DNA from: a virus | Virus record (IMG/VR): IMGVR_UViG_3300027971_000115 | Location: 1-36,749 of that record | DNA: 36,749 nt | Strand: one strand, 5' to 3' | Part shown: positions 1 to 31,603 of the stretch, piece after piece | Position numbering within the stretch: the stretch's first letter is position 1 | Layout: each line of letters opens with the position of its first letter | Position numbers and translations under genes: made by a program | The notes under the pieces: generated by a model | What the model was told of the DNA's origin: nothing | What the model saw: only the letters and a program-made list of their open reading frames with translations | Databases searched by the model: none

Positions 1-144
1 ACCTGTCGAAACCCTAAGCCGAGTTTAGGCGGCTAATGCGAAACGTGAGTCGTTTGCGTTTACTTTTTTTGCTTGATTAACGGTCATCGCCTACCGTGCT
101 GTCCACTCTGTTACTTGTTGCCCTGTCAAATCTAGGTCAAGCCC
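1..144 (-). ncRNA. ssrA: tmRNA coding piece (5' half of a permuted tmRNA), cut by window edge
   Basis: On the minus strand the segment opens GGGCTTG, which pairs at all seven positions (one G-U) with CAAGTCC at the 3' end of the piece at 239-303. It continues with CTAGATTTGACAGGG, matching the conserved tmRNA 5' domain (E. coli CTGGATTCGACGGG). Positions 57-25 encode the tag A-N-D-S-R-F-A-L-A-A followed by TAA, preceded by GTAAAC as expected around a resume codon. The tag stop lies in a hairpin (CCTAA/TTAGG, about 29-13), as in helix P5. tmRNA rescues ribosomes stalled on broken mRNA and marks the product for proteolysis. The 5' half lies downstream of the 3' half, so the gene is circularly permuted as in alphaproteobacteria, cyanobacteria and one betaproteobacterial lineage. 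The 3' end of this piece is outside the window. Confidence 0.93.
25..57 (-). other. tmRNA tag reading frame ANDSRFALAA-stop
   Basis: GCA at 57-55 is the probable resume codon, and ten codons run to TAA at 27-25. The C-terminal ALAA is the usual degron recognised by ClpXP and related proteases. The ANDxRFALAA form is closest to betaproteobacterial tags as I remember them (for example ANDERFALAA), which hints at the host group. Confidence 0.9.
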
Positions 145-145
145 A

Positions 146-226
146 TCATAAAAAGAATATTAAAAAAACCAAAATAATAATACTCACTACCCCGCAGGTA
201 TATTGGTATTTCATTTCAGGATCCAT
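146..226 (-). CDS. 26-aa membrane peptide inside the tmRNA intervening segment
   Basis: ATG at 226 follows an AAGGAG Shine-Dalgarno (237-232) by five bases, and 26 codons end at TGA 148-146. The product starts M-D-P-E-M-K-Y-Q-Y, then turns into a run of about 14 hydrophobic residues (VVSIIILVFLIFFL), a likely single membrane segment. The frame fills the intervening segment almost exactly. The ribosome site begins one base after the encoded CCA of the tmRNA acceptor piece (239). The stop ends one base before the predicted RNase P site at G144. No family is recognised. It could be a chance ORF, but the strong ribosome site, the fit and the hydrophobic tail argue otherwise. Confidence 0.6.
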   Translation of the reverse strand: MDPEMKYQYTCGVVSIIILVFLIFFL

Positions 227-238
227 ATAGTCTCCTTA

Positions 239-303
239 TGGTGGACTTGGGGGGATTCGCACCCCCGTCCAGGTCACTTTTCTCTTTGCTTCATACAGCA
301 ATA
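239..303 (-). ncRNA. ssrA: tmRNA acceptor piece (3' half of a permuted tmRNA)
   Basis: On the minus strand this reads into a T-arm (GGGGG-TGCGAAT-CCCCC), then CAAGTCC-A-CCA ending at 239. This is the tRNA-like 3' end of tmRNA with an encoded CCA. The 3' strand CAAGTCC complements GGGCTTG at 144-138, and GTGACCT just before GGAC can pair with AGG-CAAC after GAC in the 5' piece (helix P2). The 5' end is set from the promoter at 310-338 and is approximate. The T-loop has G at position 55, where U is nearly universal. The 94-base spacer to the coding piece is 145-238. Confidence 0.9.
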
Positions 304-309
304 ACTAAC

Positions 310-338
310 ATTATAACGTTATTTATACAACTAGTCAA
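310..338 (-). promoter_or_regulatory. sigma70 promoter of the tmRNA
   Basis: TTGACT (338-333), a 17-bp spacer and TATAAT (315-310). Predicted start is near 303, just upstream of the acceptor piece. The -35 box overlaps the stop codon of the exonuclease gene (333-331). Confidence 0.85.
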
Positions 339-1005
339 GCAATACAGTATCATATGCTTCACGGTAAGATATAAAGTCTTTTATATAGTCATTGCGTTTT
401 TTAATAAAAACTTGTGGATGCTCAGAATCAACTGCAATCATAATTACGATTTGTGGCACTGGTATGCTAGTTCGTTCTTCATACATTACTGCATACGCAG
501 AACATTGCATGAAATATCCTTTAATCCAACCCTCTTCTTTTAACTTGCTTGAAGTCTTGAAGTCGATCACAGATAGTTTACCATCATATTCTGCAATACA
601 GTCAACTCTACCTGCAACTTTTAGATGATGAGAATATAAAGGAACCTCTAATGCATGAATGTTATTCACATGTTCATCCAATAGAGGTTGTATAGATTTA
701 AACATAGCAACAGAATCTGGCATCGTCTTACGTGCAAAGTCTTCTTCATTATTTAAATAGTTTTCGCAAATCTTGTGTACTCTAGTACCACGGCTGGATG
801 CTTTAGTTGAAATACGATTGGCTTCTTCTTCACCCACACGTTTTCTCCATTCAAGGATTTTATCTTTGCCGTGTTGTGAGGTAATAGTAGTCACAGAGGG
901 ATATAAAAATCCCTCTGGAGTTTTGTAAAATCTTTTGCCGTTTACTGTTTCAGTTTCAAGATCATAATCAATGTCACATCCAATATGTTTAAAGTTCACT
1001 TGCAT
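331..1005 (-). CDS. PD-(D/E)XK exonuclease, MGME1/Cas4-like
   Basis: A 224-aa protein with the core of the PD-(D/E)XK nuclease fold: E120 in ALEVPLY, GRVD with D135, and IDFKTS with D148 and K150. Phage relatives of this length are single-strand DNA exonucleases linked to replication and recombination. It is the last gene before the tmRNA, whose promoter starts inside its stop codon. The ATG at 1005 sits only one base from the AGGA of its ribosome site. The GTG two codons later (at 999) is better spaced, so the true start may be there. Confidence 0.85.
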   Translation of the reverse strand: MQVNFKHIGCDIDYDLETETVNGKRFYKTPEGFLYPSVTTITSQHGKDKILEWRKRVGEEEANRISTKASSRGTRVHKICENYLNNEEDFARKTMPDSVAMFKSIQPLLDEHVNNIHALEVPLYSHHLKVAGRVDCIAEYDGKLSVIDFKTSSKLKEEGWIKGYFMQCSAYAVMYEERTSIPVPQIVIMIAVDSEHPQVFIKKRNDYIKDFISYREAYDTVLLD

Positions 1006-3863: not shown

Positions 3864-3901
3864 AATAAATTTCCTTTAAAAAAGAGTTAACCAACAGATA
3901 C

Positions 3902-3930
3902 ATGGTAACACACCATGGGGTGTTTGTCAA
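3902..3930 (-). promoter_or_regulatory. sigma70 promoter with operator-like palindrome
   Basis: TTGACA (3930-3925), 17 bp, TACCAT (3907-3902). The spacer reads ACAC-C-CCATGG-T-GTGT, a 16-bp palindrome with one mismatched pair, placed where a repressor would block RNA polymerase. The -35 box contains the TGA stop of the gene at 3927. Confidence 0.75.
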
Positions 3931-4340
3931 GCAACAACGACAAAAGGTTTGTCCCATTTGCCAACGTTGATATGAGCATAGTAAGCGGTATCGAAATAAT
4001 CCGTTTGTGCATCACTATTGTCATAATAATCACCAGAATACATTGCAGTAACGATTTTGGTCATTAGTTCTTTTGCCTTACCAGAATAGTGGCTCTGATA
4101 ATGGTAGGGATTCACTTGGTCGTAACCAGTGTCATTGGGACGGAAACCACGGGATACTTGATAGAAGTCAGCACCGCAAGTTTCGTTAGAGTTTGCAATA
4201 AAATCAACAGGCGCAGATTTGATTGTGCATGTGATAGAAAGATTATCGCAACGCAAGGAATACTTAACACCAGTGCCTTTGAGTGCGGCATCAAGGTTTG
4301 CTTTGATTTTCGCTTTACGTTCTTGGTTCATGTAAGCCAT
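3927..4340 (-). CDS. Conserved phage protein, possibly LPD29-like
   Basis: A 137-aa protein starting MAYMNQERKAKIKANLDAAL. The pattern of an N-terminal basic helix, a K-YSLRCDNLSITCTI strand pair, then an NPYHYQ and Tyr/Asp-rich region recalls the LPD29 domain of phage and conjugative polyvalent proteins. I give that family tentatively. Initiation could also be at the second methionine (4331). The stop codon is part of the next promoter's -35 box. Confidence 0.7.
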   Translation of the reverse strand: MAYMNQERKAKIKANLDAALKGTGVKYSLRCDNLSITCTIKSAPVDFIANSNETCGADFYQVSRGFRPNDTGYDQVNPYHYQSHYSGKAKELMTKIVTAMYSGDYYDNSDAQTDYFDTAYYAHINVGKWDKPFVVVA

Positions 4341-12477: not shown

Positions 12478-12551
12478 TGGCATCCCGCCAGGGATTCGAA
12501 CCCCGATCAACGGTTTTGGAGACCGCTATGTTGCCTTTACACTAGCGAGAT
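12478..12551 (-). tRNA. tRNA-Trp(CCA)
   Basis: Acceptor ATCTCGC/GCGGGAT with discriminator G and encoded CCA. Anticodon loop TCTCCAA and T-loop TTCGAAT. Last tRNA of the array. Confidence 0.95.
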
Positions 12552-12554
12552 ATT

Positions 12555-12629
12555 TGGTGGGCTTAAGTGGATTCGAACCACTACTTTATCAATTATGAGT
12601 TGACGGCACTACCTTTATGCTATAAGCCC
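12555..12629 (-). tRNA. tRNA with CAT anticodon (Met or Ile2)
   Basis: Acceptor GGGCTTA/TAAGCCC, discriminator A, CCA encoded, anticodon loop CTCATAA on stem GTCAA/TTGAT. The anticodon arm recalls tRNA-Ile2(CAU), whose C34 becomes lysidine, but elongator Met cannot be excluded. Confidence 0.93.
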
Positions 12630-12632
12630 AAT

Positions 12633-12717
12633 TGGTGTGAGTAGCCGGAATCGAACCGGCATGCCTTGCGGCGAGAGATTTTAAGTCTCTTGCGTCTACC
12701 TATTTCGCCATACTCAC
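12633..12717 (-). tRNA. tRNA-Leu(TAA)
   Basis: Acceptor GTGAGTA/TACTCAC, anticodon loop CTTAAAA, a long variable arm and encoded CCA. Its first 18 bases also encode the last codons and stop of the gene at 12700. Confidence 0.95.
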
Positions 12718-13272
12718 AATATTAAACGTTATTGATAATTTTGGTTCGATAATTCTGTCAACTCTGTGCGTAACGTTTGGACCAAAAAACAATGCATGTT
12801 GGTCGTTCATTATGAATTCTTCATTGTTCAAAACCCAAACTGATTTGCCTTGAACATTCTTAACAAGAACTGAATATGGATGTGTATGGTCTTTGAATGA
12901 TACTGCTGACGTTCCTTTTCCAACATAGATGTTTGCTGTAGCATTACCATATTCATTCATAAGAATATCTGTTATCTTAGATATGTCATTGAACAAATAT
13001 TGAACTCTGCTTAGAACTAACGTGTATCCATTATTGTACATGTCATGTACTTTGTTTGCATCTACGTATCCATCATCCAAATAAAAATCAAAAAACTCTT
13101 CATCATTCTGTAGAATTGTTTTTATGCTTGGAACATTATCATAGTTCCAACCACTCACATGTTTAAGATAATGTCTAGGCCAACGATACCTATCTGAGAT
13201 TCGTTCCATTAAATCATCTATCGTAAATGATAGATTGATATTTTCTATTTGATCAAAAATTTTATTGTTCAT
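12700..13272 (-). CDS. JmjC/cupin_4-like 2OG-Fe(II) oxygenase
   Basis: A 190-aa protein with a JmjC/cupin_4-like core. NIYVGKGTSAVSFKDHTHPY gives metal-ligand candidates H129 and H131, followed by SVLVKNVQGKSVWVL as in ribosomal oxygenases. FFGPNVTHRVDRI gives H169 and the basic residue. The family hydroxylates ribosomal proteins or other proteins. Here the gene lies within the tRNA array, and its final codons and TAG stop form the 5' 18 bases of tRNA-Leu. Substrate unknown. The acidic second ligand is not obvious, so activity is uncertain. Confidence 0.72.
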   Translation of the reverse strand: MNNKIFDQIENINLSFTIDDLMERISDRYRWPRHYLKHVSGWNYDNVPSIKTILQNDEEFFDFYLDDGYVDANKVHDMYNNGYTLVLSRVQYLFNDISKITDILMNEYGNATANIYVGKGTSAVSFKDHTHPYSVLVKNVQGKSVWVLNNEEFIMNDQHALFFGPNVTHRVDRIIEPKLSITFNIVSMAK

Positions 13273-13873
13273 ATTCTGTATTGAAACTTAAAACAATTCT
13301 CTCTTTAGATTGATTTTTTTTATCCGATCCATGTTCTAACCAACTAGGAAACAAAATTAAATCTCCAACAGTTGGCATGAATTTTACATTTTGTGATGAA
13401 TACTCAGTTACATTTTCATTCATAATGAATTCCGGAATAAATGATGCAAACGAATTTGGATTTAAAAAACATATATCACTACTATCATCATCAACATTTA
13501 AATATAAAGCACCTGAGATAACACTTCCACCATGCCAATGATATTTTAATTTGCTATCTGGATATTGTACATTCATCCAAGAATTTGATAATTTAAGTTT
13601 TTTAGATCCATAATCTTTTGCATAGTGATTAACTGCTAATTGAAGTTTATCTTTTATATTGAAATGTTTTTCGATGTTATCCAGAGTAAAACTTTTTTGT
13701 CCTATATGTGCATGTGCAAGAAATGACGTTTTTACATTACCATTAAACACACCATAATCGCTCAAAGATTCTTCAATGAGTTGATTTAAAACTTCAATGC
13801 ATTCGTTAGGTGTCAAAAAATTTTCAAATCTTTTCAATAGAACTGGAAAGATATTGTAATTATGCTCAATCAT
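13262..13873 (-). CDS. 2OG-Fe(II) oxygenase (2OG-FeII_Oxy_5-like)
   Basis: A 203-aa protein. NSWMNVQYPDSKLKYHWHGG contains H112 and H114, followed by SVISGALYLN, the hallmark of the TIGR02466/PF13759 group. FPSWLEHGSDKKNQ gives the distal H181, and ERIVLSFN gives R192 for 2-oxoglutarate. The start at 13873 follows AAAGG with good spacing. A longer frame would run into tRNA-Arg. Stop and the next start overlap by 11 bases. Common in cyanophages and other T4-like phages; substrate unknown. Confidence 0.85.
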   Translation of the reverse strand: MIEHNYNIFPVLLKRFENFLTPNECIEVLNQLIEESLSDYGVFNGNVKTSFLAHAHIGQKSFTLDNIEKHFNIKDKLQLAVNHYAKDYGSKKLKLSNSWMNVQYPDSKLKYHWHGGSVISGALYLNVDDDSSDICFLNPNSFASFIPEFIMNENVTEYSSQNVKFMPTVGDLILFPSWLEHGSDKKNQSKERIVLSFNTEYEQ

Positions 13874-13888
13874 ATACGCCTTTAAATC

Positions 13889-13963
13889 TGGCCCGACCTG
13901 AGGGAATCGAACCCCCATAATGACTTTAGAAGAATCATGTCCTATCCGTTGAACGAAGGTCGG
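13889..13963 (-). tRNA. tRNA-Arg(TCT)
   Basis: Acceptor CCGACCT/AGGTCGG, discriminator G, CCA encoded, anticodon loop CTTCTAA, T-loop TTCGATT. Confidence 0.95.
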
Positions 13964-13970
13964 AATAAAC

Positions 13971-14044
13971 TGGAGCGGGATATGAGAATCGAACTCATAA
14001 CTGAAGTTTGGAAGACTGCCGTTTTACCACTAAACTAATCCCGC
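13971..14044 (-). tRNA. tRNA-Gly(TCC)
   Basis: Acceptor GCGGGAT/ATCCCGC, discriminator T, CCA encoded, anticodon loop CTTCCAA. One C-T mismatch lies in the anticodon stem. Confidence 0.93.
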
Positions 14045-14052
14045 ATAAAAAT

Positions 14053-14127
14053 TGGTGGAGATGGAGAGAATCGAACTCTCAATTTCTGGTTGCAAACCAG
14101 ATGTGTTCCCATTAGCACTACACCCCC
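14053..14127 (-). tRNA. tRNA-Ala(TGC)
   Basis: Acceptor GGGGGTG/CATCTCC (two G-U pairs), discriminator A, CCA encoded, anticodon loop TTTGCAA on stem TCTGG/CCAGA. A C-A mismatch closes the D-stem. Confidence 0.9.
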
Positions 14128-14136
14128 CATTATATA

Positions 14137-14213
<77 letters not shown>

Positions 14214-14222
14214 TTTTATTCT

Positions 14223-14297
14223 TGGTACCTTGTGACAGGATCGAACTGCCGACCTTCTCCGTGTAAAGGAGTTACTCTACCGCTGAGTTAACAAGGC
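14223..14297 (-). tRNA. tRNA-Val(TAC)
   Basis: Acceptor GCCTTGT/ACAAGGT, discriminator A, CCA encoded, anticodon loop TTTACAC. An A-A mismatch opens the base of the anticodon stem. Confidence 0.93.
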
Positions 14298-14302
14298 GTT
14301 AT

Positions 14303-14376
14303 TGGTGCCCCTTGACAGAATCGAACTGCCGTAACCTGATTACAAAACAGGCGTAATACCATTATACTAAAAGGGC
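14303..14376 (-). tRNA. tRNA-Thr(TGT)
   Basis: Acceptor GCCCTTT/AAGGGGC, discriminator A, CCA encoded, anticodon loop TTTGTAA. Its first ten bases also carry the stop of the gene at 14367. Confidence 0.94.
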
Positions 14377-14921
14377 AAAACTTTTACTTCTTTAATGAAA
14401 AATGTTAGAGTCAATCTAGCATTATTCACATCATCACCAAAACATTGTTCTGGTCGATGCAACAAATTTGCATTATACAAAGCAAGTCTGTTAAAAACAT
14501 TATCGATTACAATTGGTTTATTGTCAACTAAAACTATTGTTCCGGAATTCTTCGGAGGATTTTTATTCAGATAAATCACTCCAGACAAAACAGAACCATC
14601 ATCTTTATGCCACCAACTGTTTTGGGGTTGCCCAACAAACGCTGGCGCAAAATGCAAATATGATTCTATTTTGCATTGCACATTGTATGATGTAATCTTT
14701 TTAAAAATTTCATTGAACAATTTATTACACAAACTGTAATCGATAACTTCTAACAAATCTGATCTGAGCCCCTGCCAATACCCACCAATCGGTTCACTAC
14801 TTTTTAGTAACGCACCATTGATTGTATTCGTTCGTTTATAATACTCTATTCTCTTAGAGAAGTCAACAAGCAAATCTGGATCATCTAAAATATTATCTAC
14901 TACAAGGTAATCATTAATCAT
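14367..14921 (-). CDS. 2OG-Fe(II) oxygenase
   Basis: A 184-aa protein with complete iron and 2-oxoglutarate ligands: H105-K-D107 in NSWWHKDDGSVLSGVIYLN, the distal H155 in ALYNANLLHRPEQC, and R169 in NNARLTLTFF. The opening MINDYLVVDNILDDPDLLVD is typical of phage prolyl-hydroxylase-like enzymes. Substrate unknown. No clear ribosome site is visible upstream. The TAG stop lies within the 5' end of tRNA-Thr. Confidence 0.85.
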   Translation of the reverse strand: MINDYLVVDNILDDPDLLVDFSKRIEYYKRTNTINGALLKSSEPIGGYWQGLRSDLLEVIDYSLCNKLFNEIFKKITSYNVQCKIESYLHFAPAFVGQPQNSWWHKDDGSVLSGVIYLNKNPPKNSGTIVLVDNKPIVIDNVFNRLALYNANLLHRPEQCFGDDVNNARLTLTFFIKEVKVLPF

Positions 14922-14954
14922 AATTTCATTTTAAGTTGTCATACTTTATATAGT

Positions 14955-15028
14955 TGGCAGAGGGTACAAGAATCGAACTTGTGACAACGGAATCAAAATC
15001 CGTGGTTATACCATTTAACTAACCCCCA
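14955..15028 (-). tRNA. tRNA-Gln(TTG)
   Basis: Acceptor TGGGGGT/ACCCTCT with a T1-T72 mismatch, discriminator G, CCA encoded, anticodon loop TTTTGAT. Confidence 0.94.
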
Positions 15029-15034
15029 ACAACT

Positions 15035-15122
15035 TGGCGGAAGCGGTGAGATTCGAACTCACGGACCGTTTCCGATCTCTAGTTTTCAAGACTAGCGCCA
15101 TAGACCACTCGACCACACTTCC
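15035..15122 (-). tRNA. tRNA-Ser(TGA)
   Basis: Acceptor GGAAGTG/CGCTTCC, discriminator G, CCA encoded, anticodon loop CTTGAAA, long variable arm. Confidence 0.95.
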
Positions 15123-15126
15123 TAAT

Positions 15127-15201
15127 TGGCACCCAATGAAGGAATCAAACCTCCAACTCCTCGTTCGTAGCAAGGTGTGATATTCATTTCACTAATCGGG
15201 T
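15127..15201 (-). tRNA. tRNA-Arg(ACG) with A19-U56 pair
   Basis: Acceptor ACCCGAT/ATTGGGT, discriminator G, CCA encoded, anticodon loop CTACGAA (A34 needs TadA deamination to inosine). The T-loop is TTTGATT, so position 56 is U instead of C, and the D-loop AATGAATA has A19 instead of G. The usual G19-C56 pair thus appears replaced by A19-U56. Confidence 0.9.
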
Positions 15202-15204
15202 AAT

Positions 15205-15287
15205 TGGTGCCCCAAGAGAGACTCGAACTCTCACGCACTAGGCACTGGCTTCTAAGACCAGCGTGTCTACCATTCCACCATCGGGGC
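15205..15287 (-). tRNA. tRNA-Leu(TAG)
   Basis: Acceptor GCCCCGA/TTGGGGC, discriminator A, CCA encoded, anticodon loop CTTAGAA, long variable arm. Confidence 0.94.
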
Positions 15288-15295
15288 GATATACT

Positions 15296-15369
15296 TGGTA
15301 CCCAGTAGAGGTATCGATCCTCTGATTAACGCTTATCAAGCGTTTGTTATACCATTTAACTAACCGGGC
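15296..15369 (-). tRNA. tRNA-Ile(GAT)
   Basis: Acceptor GCCCGGT/ACTGGGT, discriminator A, CCA encoded, anticodon loop TTGATAA. The T-loop ATCGATA has A at position 54. Confidence 0.92.
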
Positions 15370-15374
15370 ATATT

Positions 15375-15450
15375 TGGTACCGACTTCAGGTTACGATCCT
15401 GATTCTCTGGTTTTTCAAACCAGCGCAATGACCACACTTGCTCAATCGGC
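15375..15450 (-). tRNA. tRNA-Phe(GAA), divergent core
   Basis: Acceptor GCCGATT/AGTCGGT, discriminator A, CCA encoded, anticodon loop TTGAAAA. Position 8 is G rather than U, the T-loop ATCGTAA has A54 and U58, and positions 15 and 48 read T and A. The first nine bases overlap the stop of the gene at 15442. Confidence 0.87.
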
Positions 15451-16026
15451 AGAACCATTTCCGTTCTTAAATCCTACTACACCACCTTCTTCTTTGATGC
15501 GTTTGATAACGTCTTCAAAAAGAATTGGCGTGTAATCTGTTTGCTCTACACATACACAATAGTATCTTGGATCGGGAACTGGAACACCATACTTACCTAC
15601 TGGTTGCATCATCACTCTGTTAGAATGTAGATGCCCATGAATGTTCACACCGAATCTTCCAAGACTGTCTACGTGAATAGGAATGTGAGAAAGAATCATT
15701 CCGTTCATTACATGATATGCACGTAACTCTCTGAAATGTTTTCTATACTCATCATCACGAAAAATATCGTGATTACCACGAATTAAAACTTTGTCACCAT
15801 TCAACCTACGCATAATTCCCAATGCTTTGCGGTTGATAACAACATCGCCTAGATGATAAACTTTATCGTTAGGGCGAACTCTATCGTTCCAACGCCTAAC
15901 CATTTCTTCATCCATCTCATCTGCATTATCCCATGGACGTAGTTTTGTCACACCATCATTACGCATGAATGTACATACACCATGGTGACCAAAGTGTGTG
16001 TCACTAACTAAAAATACTGACGGCAT
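15442..16026 (-). CDS. Calcineurin-like metallophosphatase (second copy)
   Basis: A 194-aa metallophosphoesterase: D9-T-H11 in VSDTHFGHH, YHLGDVV near residue 58, RGNHD near 84, SHIPIH near 113 and HGHLHSN near 130. Compact phage enzymes of this type are phosphodiesterases with unproven substrates. Sequence and length differ from the enzyme at 9529, so not a recent duplicate. It is flanked by tRNA-His and tRNA-Phe, and its stop codon is part of the tRNA-Phe gene, so RNase P would trim its transcript. Confidence 0.9.
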   Translation of the reverse strand: MPSVFLVSDTHFGHHGVCTFMRNDGVTKLRPWDNADEMDEEMVRRWNDRVRPNDKVYHLGDVVINRKALGIMRRLNGDKVLIRGNHDIFRDDEYRKHFRELRAYHVMNGMILSHIPIHVDSLGRFGVNIHGHLHSNRVMMQPVGKYGVPVPDPRYYCVCVEQTDYTPILFEDVIKRIKEEGGVVGFKNGNGSAD

Positions 16027-16040
16027 ATATTACTCCTTTG

Positions 16041-16115
16041 TGGGGTGTCTAATGAGGATCGAACTCATACGGAGGGAATCACAATCCCTAATGCTACCAC
16101 TACATCATAGACACC
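16041..16115 (-). tRNA. tRNA-His(GTG)
   Basis: Acceptor GTGTCTA/TAGACAC with encoded G-1 paired to C73, then CCA. Anticodon loop TTGTGAT. Confidence 0.95.
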
Positions 16116-16207
16116 ATATAGAAACACTCTTATTCTCCATACCTTCTTGAGGATCAATTCAAGGTCTTACTTCATAGAACCTGCGTCCAGTTTAGAGTGT
16201 TTTTATA
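16116..16207 (-). ncRNA. Structured spacer RNA A between tRNA-Lys and tRNA-His
   Basis: No ORF of note. The ends form an 18-bp stem (16113-16130 with 16194-16211, one G-U) reaching into both tRNAs. Inside is a hairpin ACCTTGA/TCAAGAAGGT with a two-base bulge. Candidate stable RNA released when the tRNAs are processed, similar in position to T4 RNA C and RNA D. Confidence 0.55.
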
Positions 16208-16282
16208 TGGTAGGGGCACCGAGAATCGAACTCGGATTAATAGGTTAAAAGCCTACTACTTTAGCCGTTAAGTTATGCCCCC
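16208..16282 (-). tRNA. tRNA-Lys(TTT)
   Basis: Acceptor GGGGGCA/TGCCCCT, discriminator A, CCA encoded, anticodon loop CTTTTAA. Confidence 0.94.
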
Positions 16283-16286
16283 ATAT

Positions 16287-16361
16287 TGGTGGTTCAGGTT
16301 GGATTCGAGCCAACGACCTACTCCGTATGAAGGAGTTGCACTACCGCTGTGCTACTGAACC
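16287..16361 (-). tRNA. tRNA-Met(CAT), elongator-like
   Basis: Acceptor GGTTCAG/CTGAACC, discriminator A, CCA encoded, anticodon loop TTCATAC on ACTCC/GGAGT. The loop matches organellar elongator Met. The T-loop CTCGAAT has C54. First pair G1-C72 rules out a normal initiator. Confidence 0.93.
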
Positions 16362-16364
16362 GAT

Positions 16365-16450
16365 TGGTGGAGAATCAGGGATTCGAACCCCGTATACCTT
16401 AAGGTGACAGATTTACAGTCTGCTGAAGTCGCCAATGCTTCTCATTCTCC
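16365..16450 (-). tRNA. tRNA-Tyr(GTA)
   Basis: Acceptor GGAGAAT/ATTCTCC, discriminator A, CCA encoded, anticodon loop CTGTAAA, long variable arm. Confidence 0.95.
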
Positions 16451-16456
16451 GTTGTT

Positions 16457-16531
16457 TGGCTCCAGAGGCAGGGATCGAACCTACGACCAATTGATTAACA
16501 GTCAACTGCACTACCGCTGTGCTACTCTGGA
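16457..16531 (-). tRNA. tRNA-Asn(GTT)
   Basis: Acceptor TCCAGAG/CTCTGGA, discriminator G, CCA encoded, anticodon loop CTGTTAA. Confidence 0.95.
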
Positions 16532-16738
16532 ATAAATGCTTTCTCTCTGCGGCGGTAATTATAGTACAGAAAGATATGACGCTATCATATCCCTCACACG
16601 TACCCTCCACCCGCTCCCCGACCAAAGAGAATTCTCGTATTGCCAACGCTACTTCGGTAAAAGTAGTACCACCCTTGAGTCACGAACTCACTTCTCCTTC
16701 CTGCGGGTCACAGTAGCCAGACGTTACTCCGGCGGGTT
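16532..16738 (-). ncRNA. GC-rich structured spacer RNA B
   Basis: About 207 bases between the divergent CAU tRNA and tRNA-Asn, visibly richer in G+C than the coding regions. Hairpins on the minus strand: GCCGGA/TCTGGC, CTACTT/AAGTAG, GATATGA/TCATATC (7 bp perfect), and a possible long-range ACCCGC/GCGGGT pair. No convincing ORF. Possibly a stable RNA of unknown role. Confidence 0.5.
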
Positions 16739-16811
16739 TGGTTGCAGGTAGTGGTAACGCTCCACTCTCACTATGGCTTATGAGACCATGCGGGTCCTTG
16801 ACCTACCTGCG
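16739..16811 (-). tRNA. Highly divergent CAU tRNA or tRNA-like RNA, initiator-like
   Basis: A 73-base cloverleaf: six acceptor pairs GCAGGT/ACCTGC with C1-A72 unpaired as in tRNA-fMet, discriminator A and encoded CCA. Anticodon arm ATGGT-CTCATAA-GCCAT. T-arm AGTGG-AGCGTTA-CCACT. The D-arm is tiny (GGTC-AAG-GACC) and lacks GG, and the T-loop lacks T54, T55 and A58. The C1-A72 mismatch and CAT suggest an initiator, but the three G-C pairs of initiator anticodon stems are absent. It may be a mimic or a decaying gene. Confidence 0.5.
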
Positions 16812-16814
16812 ATA

Positions 16815-17270
16815 TTACTTTATAACTTGTAGATACTCGTAGTTAACAGTATCTTCGTTTTCTCTAAACACTATAGCACCATTACGTGTATGAAATCTTT
16901 TTGCTAAATCAGTCTTTGGAGATAGTGTTACGAATCGTTTAATGTCTGGATTGTTTTCTTTGATAGATTTTACTGCATCAAAGATTAACGTGCGACCTGC
17001 TCCTGGTGCGTAACTCCATATCGTATAGAATACAGCAACATCTGGCGTATCACAAATCTCAAACAACTCAGATTCTTTTGTTGGAATCATGTTTTGATAA
17101 CTAACACATGTCATTGCTTTCACTTCATCTTGTTCATTGCGGAACACAAAGATATCTCTGTTCTTTCCGATTCTATCAACGTGAGGAATGTTTGGGCGAA
17201 CTGGATCGTCAATCAAAAATTCAAAAAACTTATCAGTCAATTCTTTTATAGTACGTATCATATTATTCAT
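16815..17270 (-). CDS. GNAT-like acetyltransferase family protein
   Basis: A 151-aa protein. AVFYTIWSYAPGAGRTLIFD carries the PGxGR-like acetyl-CoA loop, followed by a helix (AVKSIKENNPDIKRF), a VTLSPKTDLAKRFHTRNGA segment and a final beta strand, the order of a GNAT fold. Target unknown. A location among tRNAs makes tRNA or a translation protein conceivable, but nothing in the sequence shows it. A TATAAATA box lies 25 bases upstream; the ribosome site is weak. The gene ends three bases before the divergent CAU tRNA. Confidence 0.65.
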   Translation of the reverse strand: MNNMIRTIKELTDKFFEFLIDDPVRPNIPHVDRIGKNRDIFVFRNEQDEVKAMTCVSYQNMIPTKESELFEICDTPDVAVFYTIWSYAPGAGRTLIFDAVKSIKENNPDIKRFVTLSPKTDLAKRFHTRNGAIVFRENEDTVNYEYLQVIK

Positions 17271-17294
17271 TTCTTAAAATTATAAATCGTCATA

Positions 17295-17302
17295 TATTTA
17301 TA
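17295..17302 (-). promoter_or_regulatory. T4-type late promoter box TATAAATA
   Basis: Exact TATAAATA on the minus strand, 25 bp upstream of the ATG at 17270, the usual spacing for a T4-type late promoter. Confidence 0.5.
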
Positions 17303-17309
17303 TAAAATC

Positions 17310-17385
17310 TGGCGGTCTTAGGGGGTAACGATCCCCACTCTTATGGCGTGACAAGCCATCGTGCGTCCATGAACACTTTAAGACC
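17310..17385 (-). tRNA. tRNA-Asp(GTC) with swapped tertiary pairs
   Basis: Acceptor GGTCTTA/TAAGACC, discriminator G, CCA encoded, anticodon loop TTGTCAC on ATGGC/GCCAT. Position 8 is A and 14 is T (normally U8-A14), 15 is C and 48 is G (normally G15-C48), 54 is A and 58 is T (normally U54-A58). G18, G19, T55 and C56 are kept. Confidence 0.9.
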
Positions 17386-17642
17386 AAATACATATAGGTA
17401 TATACAATAACCTTATTATTGTGCATATCTATATTGTGTATTAGGATAGGCTACTTGCTTCCAAACAAGCCCCTAATTGAGCAGTTACTCTGTCCATCTC
17501 ATTTATTCAAAGTCTGTGTGCAGTTGAGATTCTGCCTATCAGAGCCTGCGAGGGTATTTTTAATCCTCACGCTAACGGTTTTCTGCCACCGGATCTCTAT
17601 CGCTAATCAAACGCTATTTTAACGAAAATAGTAACGGGATTC
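17386..17642 (-). ncRNA. Structured spacer RNA C
   Basis: 257 bases between tRNA-Ser(GCT) and tRNA-Asp, without a convincing ORF. Minus-strand hairpins: CTATTTT/AAAATAG (7 bp, loop CGTT), CGGT/ACCG, GCGTGAGG/CCCTCGC (one bulge), and CTCTG/CAGAG enclosing ATCTCA/TGAGAT. On the side near tRNA-Asp is CAATAA/TTATTG. Looks like a folded RNA of unknown role. Confidence 0.5.
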
Positions 17643-17730
17643 TGGCGGAGAGTATCAGATTCGAACTGATGCACCCATTTCTGGATGACGGTTTAGCAAA
17701 CCGCTGGTTTAACCACTCACCCAACTCTCC
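17643..17730 (-). tRNA. tRNA-Ser(GCT)
   Basis: Acceptor GGAGAGT/ACTCTCC, discriminator G, CCA encoded, anticodon loop TTGCTAA, long variable arm. Confidence 0.95.
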
Positions 17731-17736
17731 ATTGTT

Positions 17737-17812
17737 TGGAGTAGGTGACAGGATTCGAACCTGCATTATACGGACTTGCAAACCGTTGCCTAGCCTTTCA
17801 GCGCACACCTAC
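17737..17812 (-). tRNA. tRNA-Cys(GCA)
   Basis: Acceptor GTAGGTG/CACCTAC, discriminator T, CCA encoded, anticodon loop TTGCAAG closed by a T-T mismatch. Confidence 0.92.
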
Positions 17813-17991
17813 GTATCTACCATATTGAAACATTCTGTTTACTACCTGCTTTCGCATACTCAATGTTTTCGTTGGTTGCGGCCAACATTATTCATTGAAC
17901 TCATCCGCTTTGAGAATCTACCGGCCGGATATCTCTATTTCACTGGATGGCAAGGGCGTTCATATCAACTACCGAGCAAAATGTTTCAATA
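17813..17991 (-). ncRNA. Structured spacer RNA D between tRNA-Glu and tRNA-Cys
   Basis: Closed by a perfect 17-bp inverted repeat (17818-17834 with 17980-17996) that extends into the CCA end of tRNA-Glu. Inside on the minus strand: TCAATG/CATTGA enclosing GTTGG/CCAAC, and TGC-GAAA-GCA with a GNRA tetraloop. No convincing ORF. The outer stem shares ACCATATxGAAACA with spacer A, so the two may be related. Confidence 0.6.
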
Positions 17992-18066
17992 TGGTACACC
18001 GTAGGAGAATCGAACTCCTCTTCCAGCCGTGAAAGGGCTGTGTCCTAACCGATAGACGAACGGTGC
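17992..18066 (-). tRNA. tRNA-Glu(TTC)
   Basis: Acceptor GCACCGT/ACGGTGT, discriminator A, CCA encoded, anticodon loop CTTTCAC. First tRNA of the array. Confidence 0.95.
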
Positions 18067-30982: not shown

Positions 30983-31603
30983 TCAAGTTAAAATTTCAAT
31001 CGCATGATTGTAATGATGAATACGATCTTCAAGTCCTATATAACCGCCATTAATGCGTTTAGTCATCAACTTCAAATCTCCGATATCTGCTAAATCATTT
31101 AACTTAGCGGCAGTCCAAAACCATCCTGCTGAGTGAATTGCATATTCTGGATCAAGTAACATGTCTGGATTCTGTACTAAAGAATCGTCTTCAAACATAT
31201 TCTGTGACACTTTTATATAGTTATTTTTTCCTGTGATTTGAACAATTCCTCGACCACGATAAGTCCATCCATCGTTACTACTCTCATCACCATTGCCCAT
31301 ACGATTTGCATAAACTCTATTTGCAATCTTTTGAGGTTGTCTTTCGTATTGTTTTGCAATCTCATCTGTTGAAAAATATTTACCAAACGTTCCTCTGAGT
31401 CCCTTTGCACTATAGTTCAGGTTCTCTTGCAATAGGGTGAATCCGCCTGATTCGTGTCCACATTGTGCCATGAATGCGGCAACTCTATGTGGTGTGTCGA
31501 TATCGTAATCAGGTAAAATTGTATTTAATAATTCATACCATTGATTAAAATTTTTCACTTTCGGCATCAATTGTTTTGCCGCTTGCGGTGTAAAAAAATC
31601 CAT
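30983..31603 (-). CDS. GH19 endolysin (chitinase-like muramidase)
   Basis: A 206-aa glycoside hydrolase 19 enzyme. E51 in AQCGHESGGF and E60 in LLQENLNYSAKGL are the expected acid-base pair. DGWTYRGRGIVQITGKNNY (111-129) is the family signature, and NGGYIGLEDR closes the fold. GH19 endolysins cleave the peptidoglycan glycan chain. No signal peptide, so a holin is needed for release. An exact TATAAATA late box precedes it. Confidence 0.93.
   Translation of the reverse strand: MDFFTPQAAKQLMPKVKNFNQWYELLNTILPDYDIDTPHRVAAFMAQCGHESGGFTLLQENLNYSAKGLRGTFGKYFSTDEIAKQYERQPQKIANRVYANRMGNGDESSNDGWTYRGRGIVQITGKNNYIKVSQNMFEDDSLVQNPDMLLDPEYAIHSAGWFWTAAKLNDLADIGDLKLMTKRINGGYIGLEDRIHHYNHAIEILT

Follow-up and report, generated by a model that had tools for sequence, protein, structure and literature searches.

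A candidate membrane-peptide gene nested in the intervening sequence of a permuted phage tmRNA

Introduction

Can the segment that a permuted transfer-messenger RNA (tmRNA) discards during maturation be a gene in its own right? The question is raised by IMG/VR record IMGVR_UViG_3300027971_000115, a 36.7-kb genome fragment from an uncultured phage, which carries such a tmRNA gene at its left end on the minus strand (the whole stretch of 36,749 nucleotides analysed here is called the window). In this gene the acceptor piece precedes the coding piece, and the intervening sequence (IVS) between them, which the mature two-piece tmRNA is expected to lack, is filled by a short open reading frame (ORF). 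A preliminary description made from the sequence alone had read this spacer as a tiny mRNA for a one-pass membrane peptide, perhaps toxin-, holin- or inhibitor-like, and had proposed that the precursor could be either translated or processed.

Permuted two-piece tmRNAs are known in bacteria and in aquatic phages, for example the methylophage Melnitz (PMC9004378, PMC11915505), and two-piece processing of a bacterial permuted tmRNA has been seen by Northern blot (PMC7335160). In the available parts of the two former accounts, the IVS is treated as sequence missing from the mature RNA (PMC9004378, PMC11915505); the contents mentioned there are a tRNA-Ala and a repeat element, and protein genes are not mentioned (PMC11915505).

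Results

Anatomy of the IVS and homologs of its peptide

The IVS of the window comprises 94 nucleotides (145..238, minus strand), delimited by the alignment to the Rfam model RF04321 and by acceptor-stem pairing. The Shine-Dalgarno (SD) sequence AAGGAG (232..237, minus strand; IVS +2 to +7) starts one base past the encoded CCA and is paired in the helix that closes the IVS. Five bases past it lies the ATG (226-224), the first of 26 codons (146..226, minus strand) that encode MDPEMKYQYTCGVVSIIILVFLIFFL and are followed by a TGA (148-146), after which a single U at 145 leads to the coding piece GGGCTTG. The preliminary description had placed all these elements correctly to the base. The encoded peptide has a hydrophobicity (KD15) of 3.28. 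We regard it as likely that the IVS is a genuine nested gene whose product is a single-span membrane peptide of 26 residues, with a precursor that serves both as mRNA and as pre-tmRNA. That the ORF is translated for its protein product appears highly probable, as judged by homologous ORFs at the same place and their pattern of substitution.

The same peptide is encoded at the corresponding position of three more distinct viral tmRNAs (L393/L394, L215/L218 and L238), each inside an Rfam-supported permuted tmRNA, and the homologs share the consensus MDPEVKYQY[TV]CG[IV][LV]S[VI]IILVF... The loci L393/L394, which lie on contigs of 524 and 170 kb, were retrieved by a widened back-translation pattern, after a degenerate one that kept the window residue M5 had given no match; another match of the wider pattern, L392, was rejected as an unrelated chance match. 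L238 belongs to the phage lineage of the window, with 94-98% amino-acid identity across several flanking genes. Among the three members of the window clade with identical frame length, the ratio of nonsynonymous to synonymous polymorphism (pN/pS) amounts to 0.32 for the ORF, as opposed to 0.59 and 3.5 for the two other sense frames, with variable columns distributed 5/1/8 over the codon positions, a result that rests on few changes since the clade holds four distinct sequences only.

Isolate phages gave no tblastn match to the window peptide, nor any match over the full window tmRNA, and no PHROG family was found for the peptide at an E-value of 0.1, profile searches being weak on 26 residues. 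Concerning a bacterial origin, a single scan of 84,980 genomes with a CCA-SD pattern, the reach of which is unmeasured, returned three matches, none of them a permuted tmRNA by inspection.

A family of IVS membrane peptides

Relatives were gathered in a viral collection by neighbouring-gene search and tmRNA patterns, which yielded, once boundaries had been located, 163 distinct candidate IVSs; IVS frequencies given here are samples among the matches listed in the collection scans. One of the candidates, L234, is by inspection apparently a tRNA-like end plus an unrelated gene, with no tmRNA. End-to-end membrane-peptide ORFs of 21-26 codons were found in at least 31 distinct IVSs. They follow a common plan, in which the SD sits just past the CCA, the ATG lies 11-14 nucleotides into the IVS and the UGA stands one base before the coding piece. 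The peptides have a short, usually acidic N-terminus, followed in all 31 by a strongly hydrophobic stretch that runs to the C-terminus.

The main family, M[ND]D[DN]L..LxIGVVVVLVVFALVLL-like and represented by 12 distinct sequences, shows a pN/pS of 0.19 in frame versus 0.70 and 6.05 out of frame, with 13/4/20 variable columns by codon position; a 14-member set gives 0.24 versus 0.68 and 4.61. IVS lengths in the membrane-peptide superfamily mostly differ by threes (80, 83, 86, 89). In 41 of 58 ORF-bearing IVSs, the stop codon is precisely the UGA that a single base separates from the coding piece. Altogether 49 of the 58 frames, including that of the window, stop before the cleavage site, and the other nine end beyond it, at +12 to +122. 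Frames that overrun the site into the coding piece were seen in L087, L096, L127, L103, L209, L211, L082 and L238. On this sequence evidence, uncultured aquatic phages with a permuted tmRNA appear often to use the IVS as a tiny gene, most often for a single-helix membrane peptide. The reading of the spacer as a mini-mRNA is supported, its frame being kept in relatives with a synonymous excess.

Might the frame instead be a by-product of RNA structure, in which the purine-rich helix strand mimics an SD, UGAU mimics a stop and the U-rich loop mimics a membrane peptide, with no translation at all? UGAU and the helix occur in non-coding IVSs too, and the frame remained open in 17% of dinucleotide shuffles of the window IVS interior, so that its openness alone says little; moreover, U-rich sequence pushes any open frame toward hydrophobic residues. 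None of 5000 such shuffles was both open and equally hydrophobic. Among 93 distinct IVSs chosen without an SD requirement, 24 bear an SD-started ORF spanning the IVS, compared to a mean of 1.3 and a maximum of 5 in 100 whole-IVS shuffles. When a second set, defined by another T-arm, was put to the same test, 2 of 27 IVSs had such ORFs, and thus the frequency of coding IVSs depends on the phage group. The roughly 18-fold excess over shuffles, the codon selection specific to the reading frame, seen in the peptide family as well as in larger IVS ORFs, and the recognisable protein domains carried by other IVSs argue against a mere by-product, which is largely refuted and which we consider highly improbable.

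Two further candidates were rejected. A chance ORF is at odds with codon-level selection and with the shuffle test. On the opposite strand, one antisense reading frame has stops in all members; the two remaining ones are largely free of them, which is to be expected across from hydrophobic codons.

The closing helix accommodates the SD

The two ends of the IVS pair and extend the acceptor stem, forming a helix that contains the SD. Its 5' strand (228..238, minus strand) continues the acceptor stem, with IVS +1..+11 pairing to IVS -5..-15, and its 3' strand (145..159, minus strand) ends in the conserved UGAU that provides the UGA stop codon. TGAT terminates 104 of 116 IVSs, coding and non-coding alike. 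The first ten helix positions are 92% paired in 116 IVSs, with many pair types, versus 49-61% when the strands are slid against each other; in a larger set of 151 IVSs, 1379 of 1510 positions are paired, compared to a maximum of 1034 in shuffles. For the SD-ATG IVSs alone, the figures are 407 of 450 versus a mean of 397 and a maximum of 403 with shuffled partners. The ends of these IVSs are nearly invariant, and the covariation argument therefore rests mainly on the whole IVS set.

The helix is equally complete in ORF-bearing and non-ORF IVSs (9.25 versus 9.19 of 10 positions paired). G·U pairs occupy IVS +4 in 44 of 57 ORF-bearing versus 11 of 57 non-ORF IVSs, and IVS +5 in 30 of 57 versus 0 of 57, counts that, like those of the SD, are partly selected because part of the IVS set was retrieved by an SD-requiring pattern. 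The mean helix energy is weaker in ORF-bearing IVSs (-10.3 versus -12.4 kcal/mol), and for those obtained without SD selection it is -11.0 kcal/mol (p 0.04). A complete helix with G·U pairs at the SD guanines indicates that the SD has been written into the retained processing helix by wobble, with the conserved UGA used as stop.

In thermodynamic folds, which leave ribosomes and RNase P outside the model, the SD is unpaired with a probability of 0.003 in the folded window precursor, about 0.35 in the nascent transcript to IVS +90, and 0.02 at IVS +94. The proposal that the precursor is either translated or processed agrees with this arrangement: as the SD lies within the helix that precedes processing, translation and folding/processing should compete. 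We give such a competition about an even chance.

Other contents of the IVS

Many IVSs in the survey are non-coding, and others carry larger genes. Coding selection is evident in three of these, with in-frame pN/pS of 0.27 (L110/L235), 0.19 (L090/L113) and 0.32 (L010/L272) versus 0.95-1.7 out of frame; for the L139/L186 gene pN/pS is 0.22. The L090/L113 product contains a CxxCxxCC domain (PF03692, E-value 1.3e-6), and the 531-nucleotide IVS of L028, whose tmRNA lies near 4228, encodes an HNH homing endonuclease (phrog_655, E-value 2.6e-15). An Oxidored-like domain (PF09791, E-value 2.7e-12) was found in the 115-nucleotide IVSs of L168/L177; the corresponding frame in L168, L177 and L093 has conserved residues and is open backward into the acceptor piece, and no ATG, GTG or TTG start was seen within the IVS. 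The IVS of L004 holds a tRNA-Arg(CCG) at 3887-3960.

The IVS proteins of L110, L235, L225, L191 and L183 (IVSs of 342-491 nucleotides) share an MRI-type N-terminus (MRIKELTES, MRINEILTES, MRIKDIVTES, MRINEIASS), which may recall the capsid-targeting sequences of T4-type phages. In L225, L235 and L191, the ATG stands immediately 3' of a mini-frame TTG-AAT-AAA-TAC/TAT-TAG, and AATAAATA looks like a late promoter.

Viewed across phage permuted tmRNAs, the IVS forms a slot that tolerates insertions and has taken up small genes again and again. It may be nothing more, if the IVS simply accepts insertions within a well-transcribed phage gene and the function and timing of its cargo are unrelated to the tmRNA. 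Such a slot without linkage would fit the coding part of our reading and conflict with its regulatory part. The diversity of cargo (HNH homing endonuclease, CxxCxxCC protein, Oxidored-like domain, tRNA-Arg), the complete replacement of the IVS among close relatives and the presence of the window peptide in different phage backgrounds are all consistent with it. On the other hand, the membrane-peptide type is common, its architecture is constant to the base, and the SD stays inside the processing helix instead of being shifted downstream. Varied cargo and whole-IVS exchange between close relatives speak for a slot, whereas the constant design of the membrane peptides speaks for something more; we put an unlinked slot at slightly below an even chance.

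Several observations weigh against a nested gene tied to the tmRNA, in addition to the base-composition bias and the limits given above for the window clade, the SD-ATG helices, the SD-selected counts and the folding model. In L002-L009, whose neighbouring exonuclease is 87-95% identical to that of the window, the IVS is unrelated and non-coding wherever a tmRNA was seen, and the window ORF is thus facultative. L238 has a 2-nucleotide deletion near the ORF end that alters the end of the frame; the frame overruns the cleavage site, stops at a TAG within the coding piece and keeps the hydrophobic stretch. Seven isolate-phage IVSs were inspected and are non-coding or very short, with none coding. 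The expectation that related phages would keep the frame with an excess of synonymous changes was therefore borne out by the in-frame pN/pS of the clade, but not by L002-L009, which lack the ORF, or by the deletion in L238.

The permuted tmRNA gene and its neighbours

The tmRNA core, comprising the acceptor piece, the IVS and the coding piece to the tag stop, matches RF04321 at 300-25 (25..300, minus strand) with 128.4 bits against a cutoff of 47 (E-value 5e-25). The covariance-model match spans the tRNA-like domain in permuted order, which assigns the gene to the permuted tmRNAs. A match to RF01850 (104 bits) is flagged as 3'-truncated, the contig end cutting off the 3' end of the gene. ARAGORN gave no call for this tmRNA, probably because of the same truncation. 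The end of the acceptor piece (239..262, minus strand) consists of CAAGTCC, the discriminator A, the encoded CCA (241-239) and part of the T-arm. Across the IVS, its strand CAAGTCC pairs with the 5' strand GGGCTTG of the coding piece (144-138), including a G3·U70 wobble, and these seven-base strands co-vary among relatives, which speaks for the integrity of the tmRNA.

The tag reading frame of the coding piece, read off the sequence at 57-25 (25..57, minus strand), is ANDSRFALAA*, with an ALAA-type ending; L238 has a complete gene with the same tag according to ARAGORN. Within 144-110 (minus strand) the window has GATTTGACAGG in place of TTCGACAGG, the conserved sequence of the tmRNA D-loop analogue found in L238 and in most relatives. 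Unusually long tag frames of 30 and 24 residues were called by ARAGORN in the phage tmRNAs of L203 and L207, respectively.

Upstream on the same strand lies an exonuclease-like gene (331..1005, minus strand), which matches annotated phage exonucleases and is possibly co-transcribed. The window also contains 24 tRNA genes at 12478-18066, which cover nearly every amino acid and have small ORFs between them.

Discussion

The structure of the IVS suggests how one transcript could serve two ends. During transcription, the SD and AUG would emerge before their 3' partner strand, leaving the nascent precursor open to ribosomes. Once the closing helix forms, the SD would be hidden and translation shut, and RNase P together with a 3' processing enzyme would then release the two tmRNA pieces from the closed form. 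The peptide, with its short acidic N-terminus, would insert into the inner membrane via the C-terminal hydrophobic segment. The precursor transcript probably yields both the rescue RNA and a protein. Translation, membrane insertion, timing and function of the peptide are in this scheme what we infer from the RNA and its relatives. More tentatively, and with somewhat greater doubt than confidence, we propose that the processing helix acts as a translation switch, by which the membrane microprotein would be made only from immature precursors and a phage membrane function would be coupled to the state of trans-translation.

Alternatively, the act of translation might itself be the regulator: a ribosome on the IVS would open the helix and delay RNase P, such that tmRNA maturation tracks translation and the peptide is secondary. 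The location of the SD in the helix would suit this, as would the nine of 58 frames that end beyond the cleavage site. In that minority, a message lacking its stop codon would result from processing and could be rescued by the tmRNA itself, similar to arfA, a non-stop mRNA repressed by trans-translation (PMC10107115). There too, an RNA is cut within or close to a small frame, which ties expression to trans-translation; only the overrunning IVS frames could behave so, as the window frame, like the majority, stops before the cleavage site. Amino-acid conservation and the conserved membrane character moreover imply that the product matters, and we hold translation as the sole regulator to be decidedly unlikely.

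As for the function of the peptide, its size, hydrophobicity and single span would fit a membrane-acting toxin, a pinholin-like lysis-timing factor or an exclusion factor, and restricted expression would suit a harmful product. The window peptide matches no PHROG family, and no endolysin gene adjoins it, one neighbour being exonuclease-like and the other side cut by the contig end; a lysozyme/chitinase-like ORF, recognised by eye only, lies about 31 kb away at 30983-31603. Type I toxin mRNAs such as hok and tisB likewise encode tiny hydrophobic single-span peptides, and their start regions are hidden by structure and accessible in some forms only. The IVS gene resembles them in the type of peptide and in the hidden start region, here within a tRNA-type precursor helix. 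It differs in that no antisense RNA was identified, the general Rfam scan naming no antitoxin and no test being aimed at antisense RNA, and toxicity of the window peptide is only a candidate property. A toxin, lysis or exclusion role is unlikely on this balance, though less so than translation as the sole regulator.

We class the system of the window as a variant form of both permuted tmRNA and dual-function RNA, and not as a toxin or holin. In dual-function bacterial RNAs such as RyhB/RyhP and SgrS/SgrT, one transcript is both a functional RNA and a small-protein mRNA; the dual role is alike, and here it is the segment absent from the mature RNA that codes. With the permuted two-piece tmRNAs described so far (RF04321/RF01850; PMC9004378), the window gene shares the gene order, the IVS, the acceptor pairing, the tag frame and the occurrence in aquatic phages, and it differs in its IVS, for which the available parts of the published accounts describe no protein genes (PMC9004378, PMC11915505). 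The intron-form tmRNA, which has a group I intron with a homing endonuclease gene (PMC11915505), is similar in housing a protein gene in a removable tmRNA segment, comparable to the HNH homing endonuclease in the IVS of L028. However, a self-splicing intron is involved there, whereas here tRNA-type processing of a permutation IVS is expected, and among its frequent contents is a tiny membrane peptide that takes both SD and stop from the processing helix. We found no mention of IVS-encoded proteins of permuted tmRNAs in the open-access literature, and a prior mention elsewhere is possible. Coding IVSs may have been overlooked so far because the IVSs of the isolate phages inspected are non-coding or very short.

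The coding-IVS arrangement appears, from the genomes surveyed, to be widespread in aquatic phages, and it indicates that what a permuted tmRNA discards can be a gene. One RNA sequence here meets two codes, a base-paired processing helix and an SD with a stop codon, and offers a case in which competition of translation with RNA maturation can be tested. The peptides add a family of microproteins, which escape ordinary annotation because they are located inside an RNA gene, and the IVS that houses them reveals a modular insertion slot in phage genomes.
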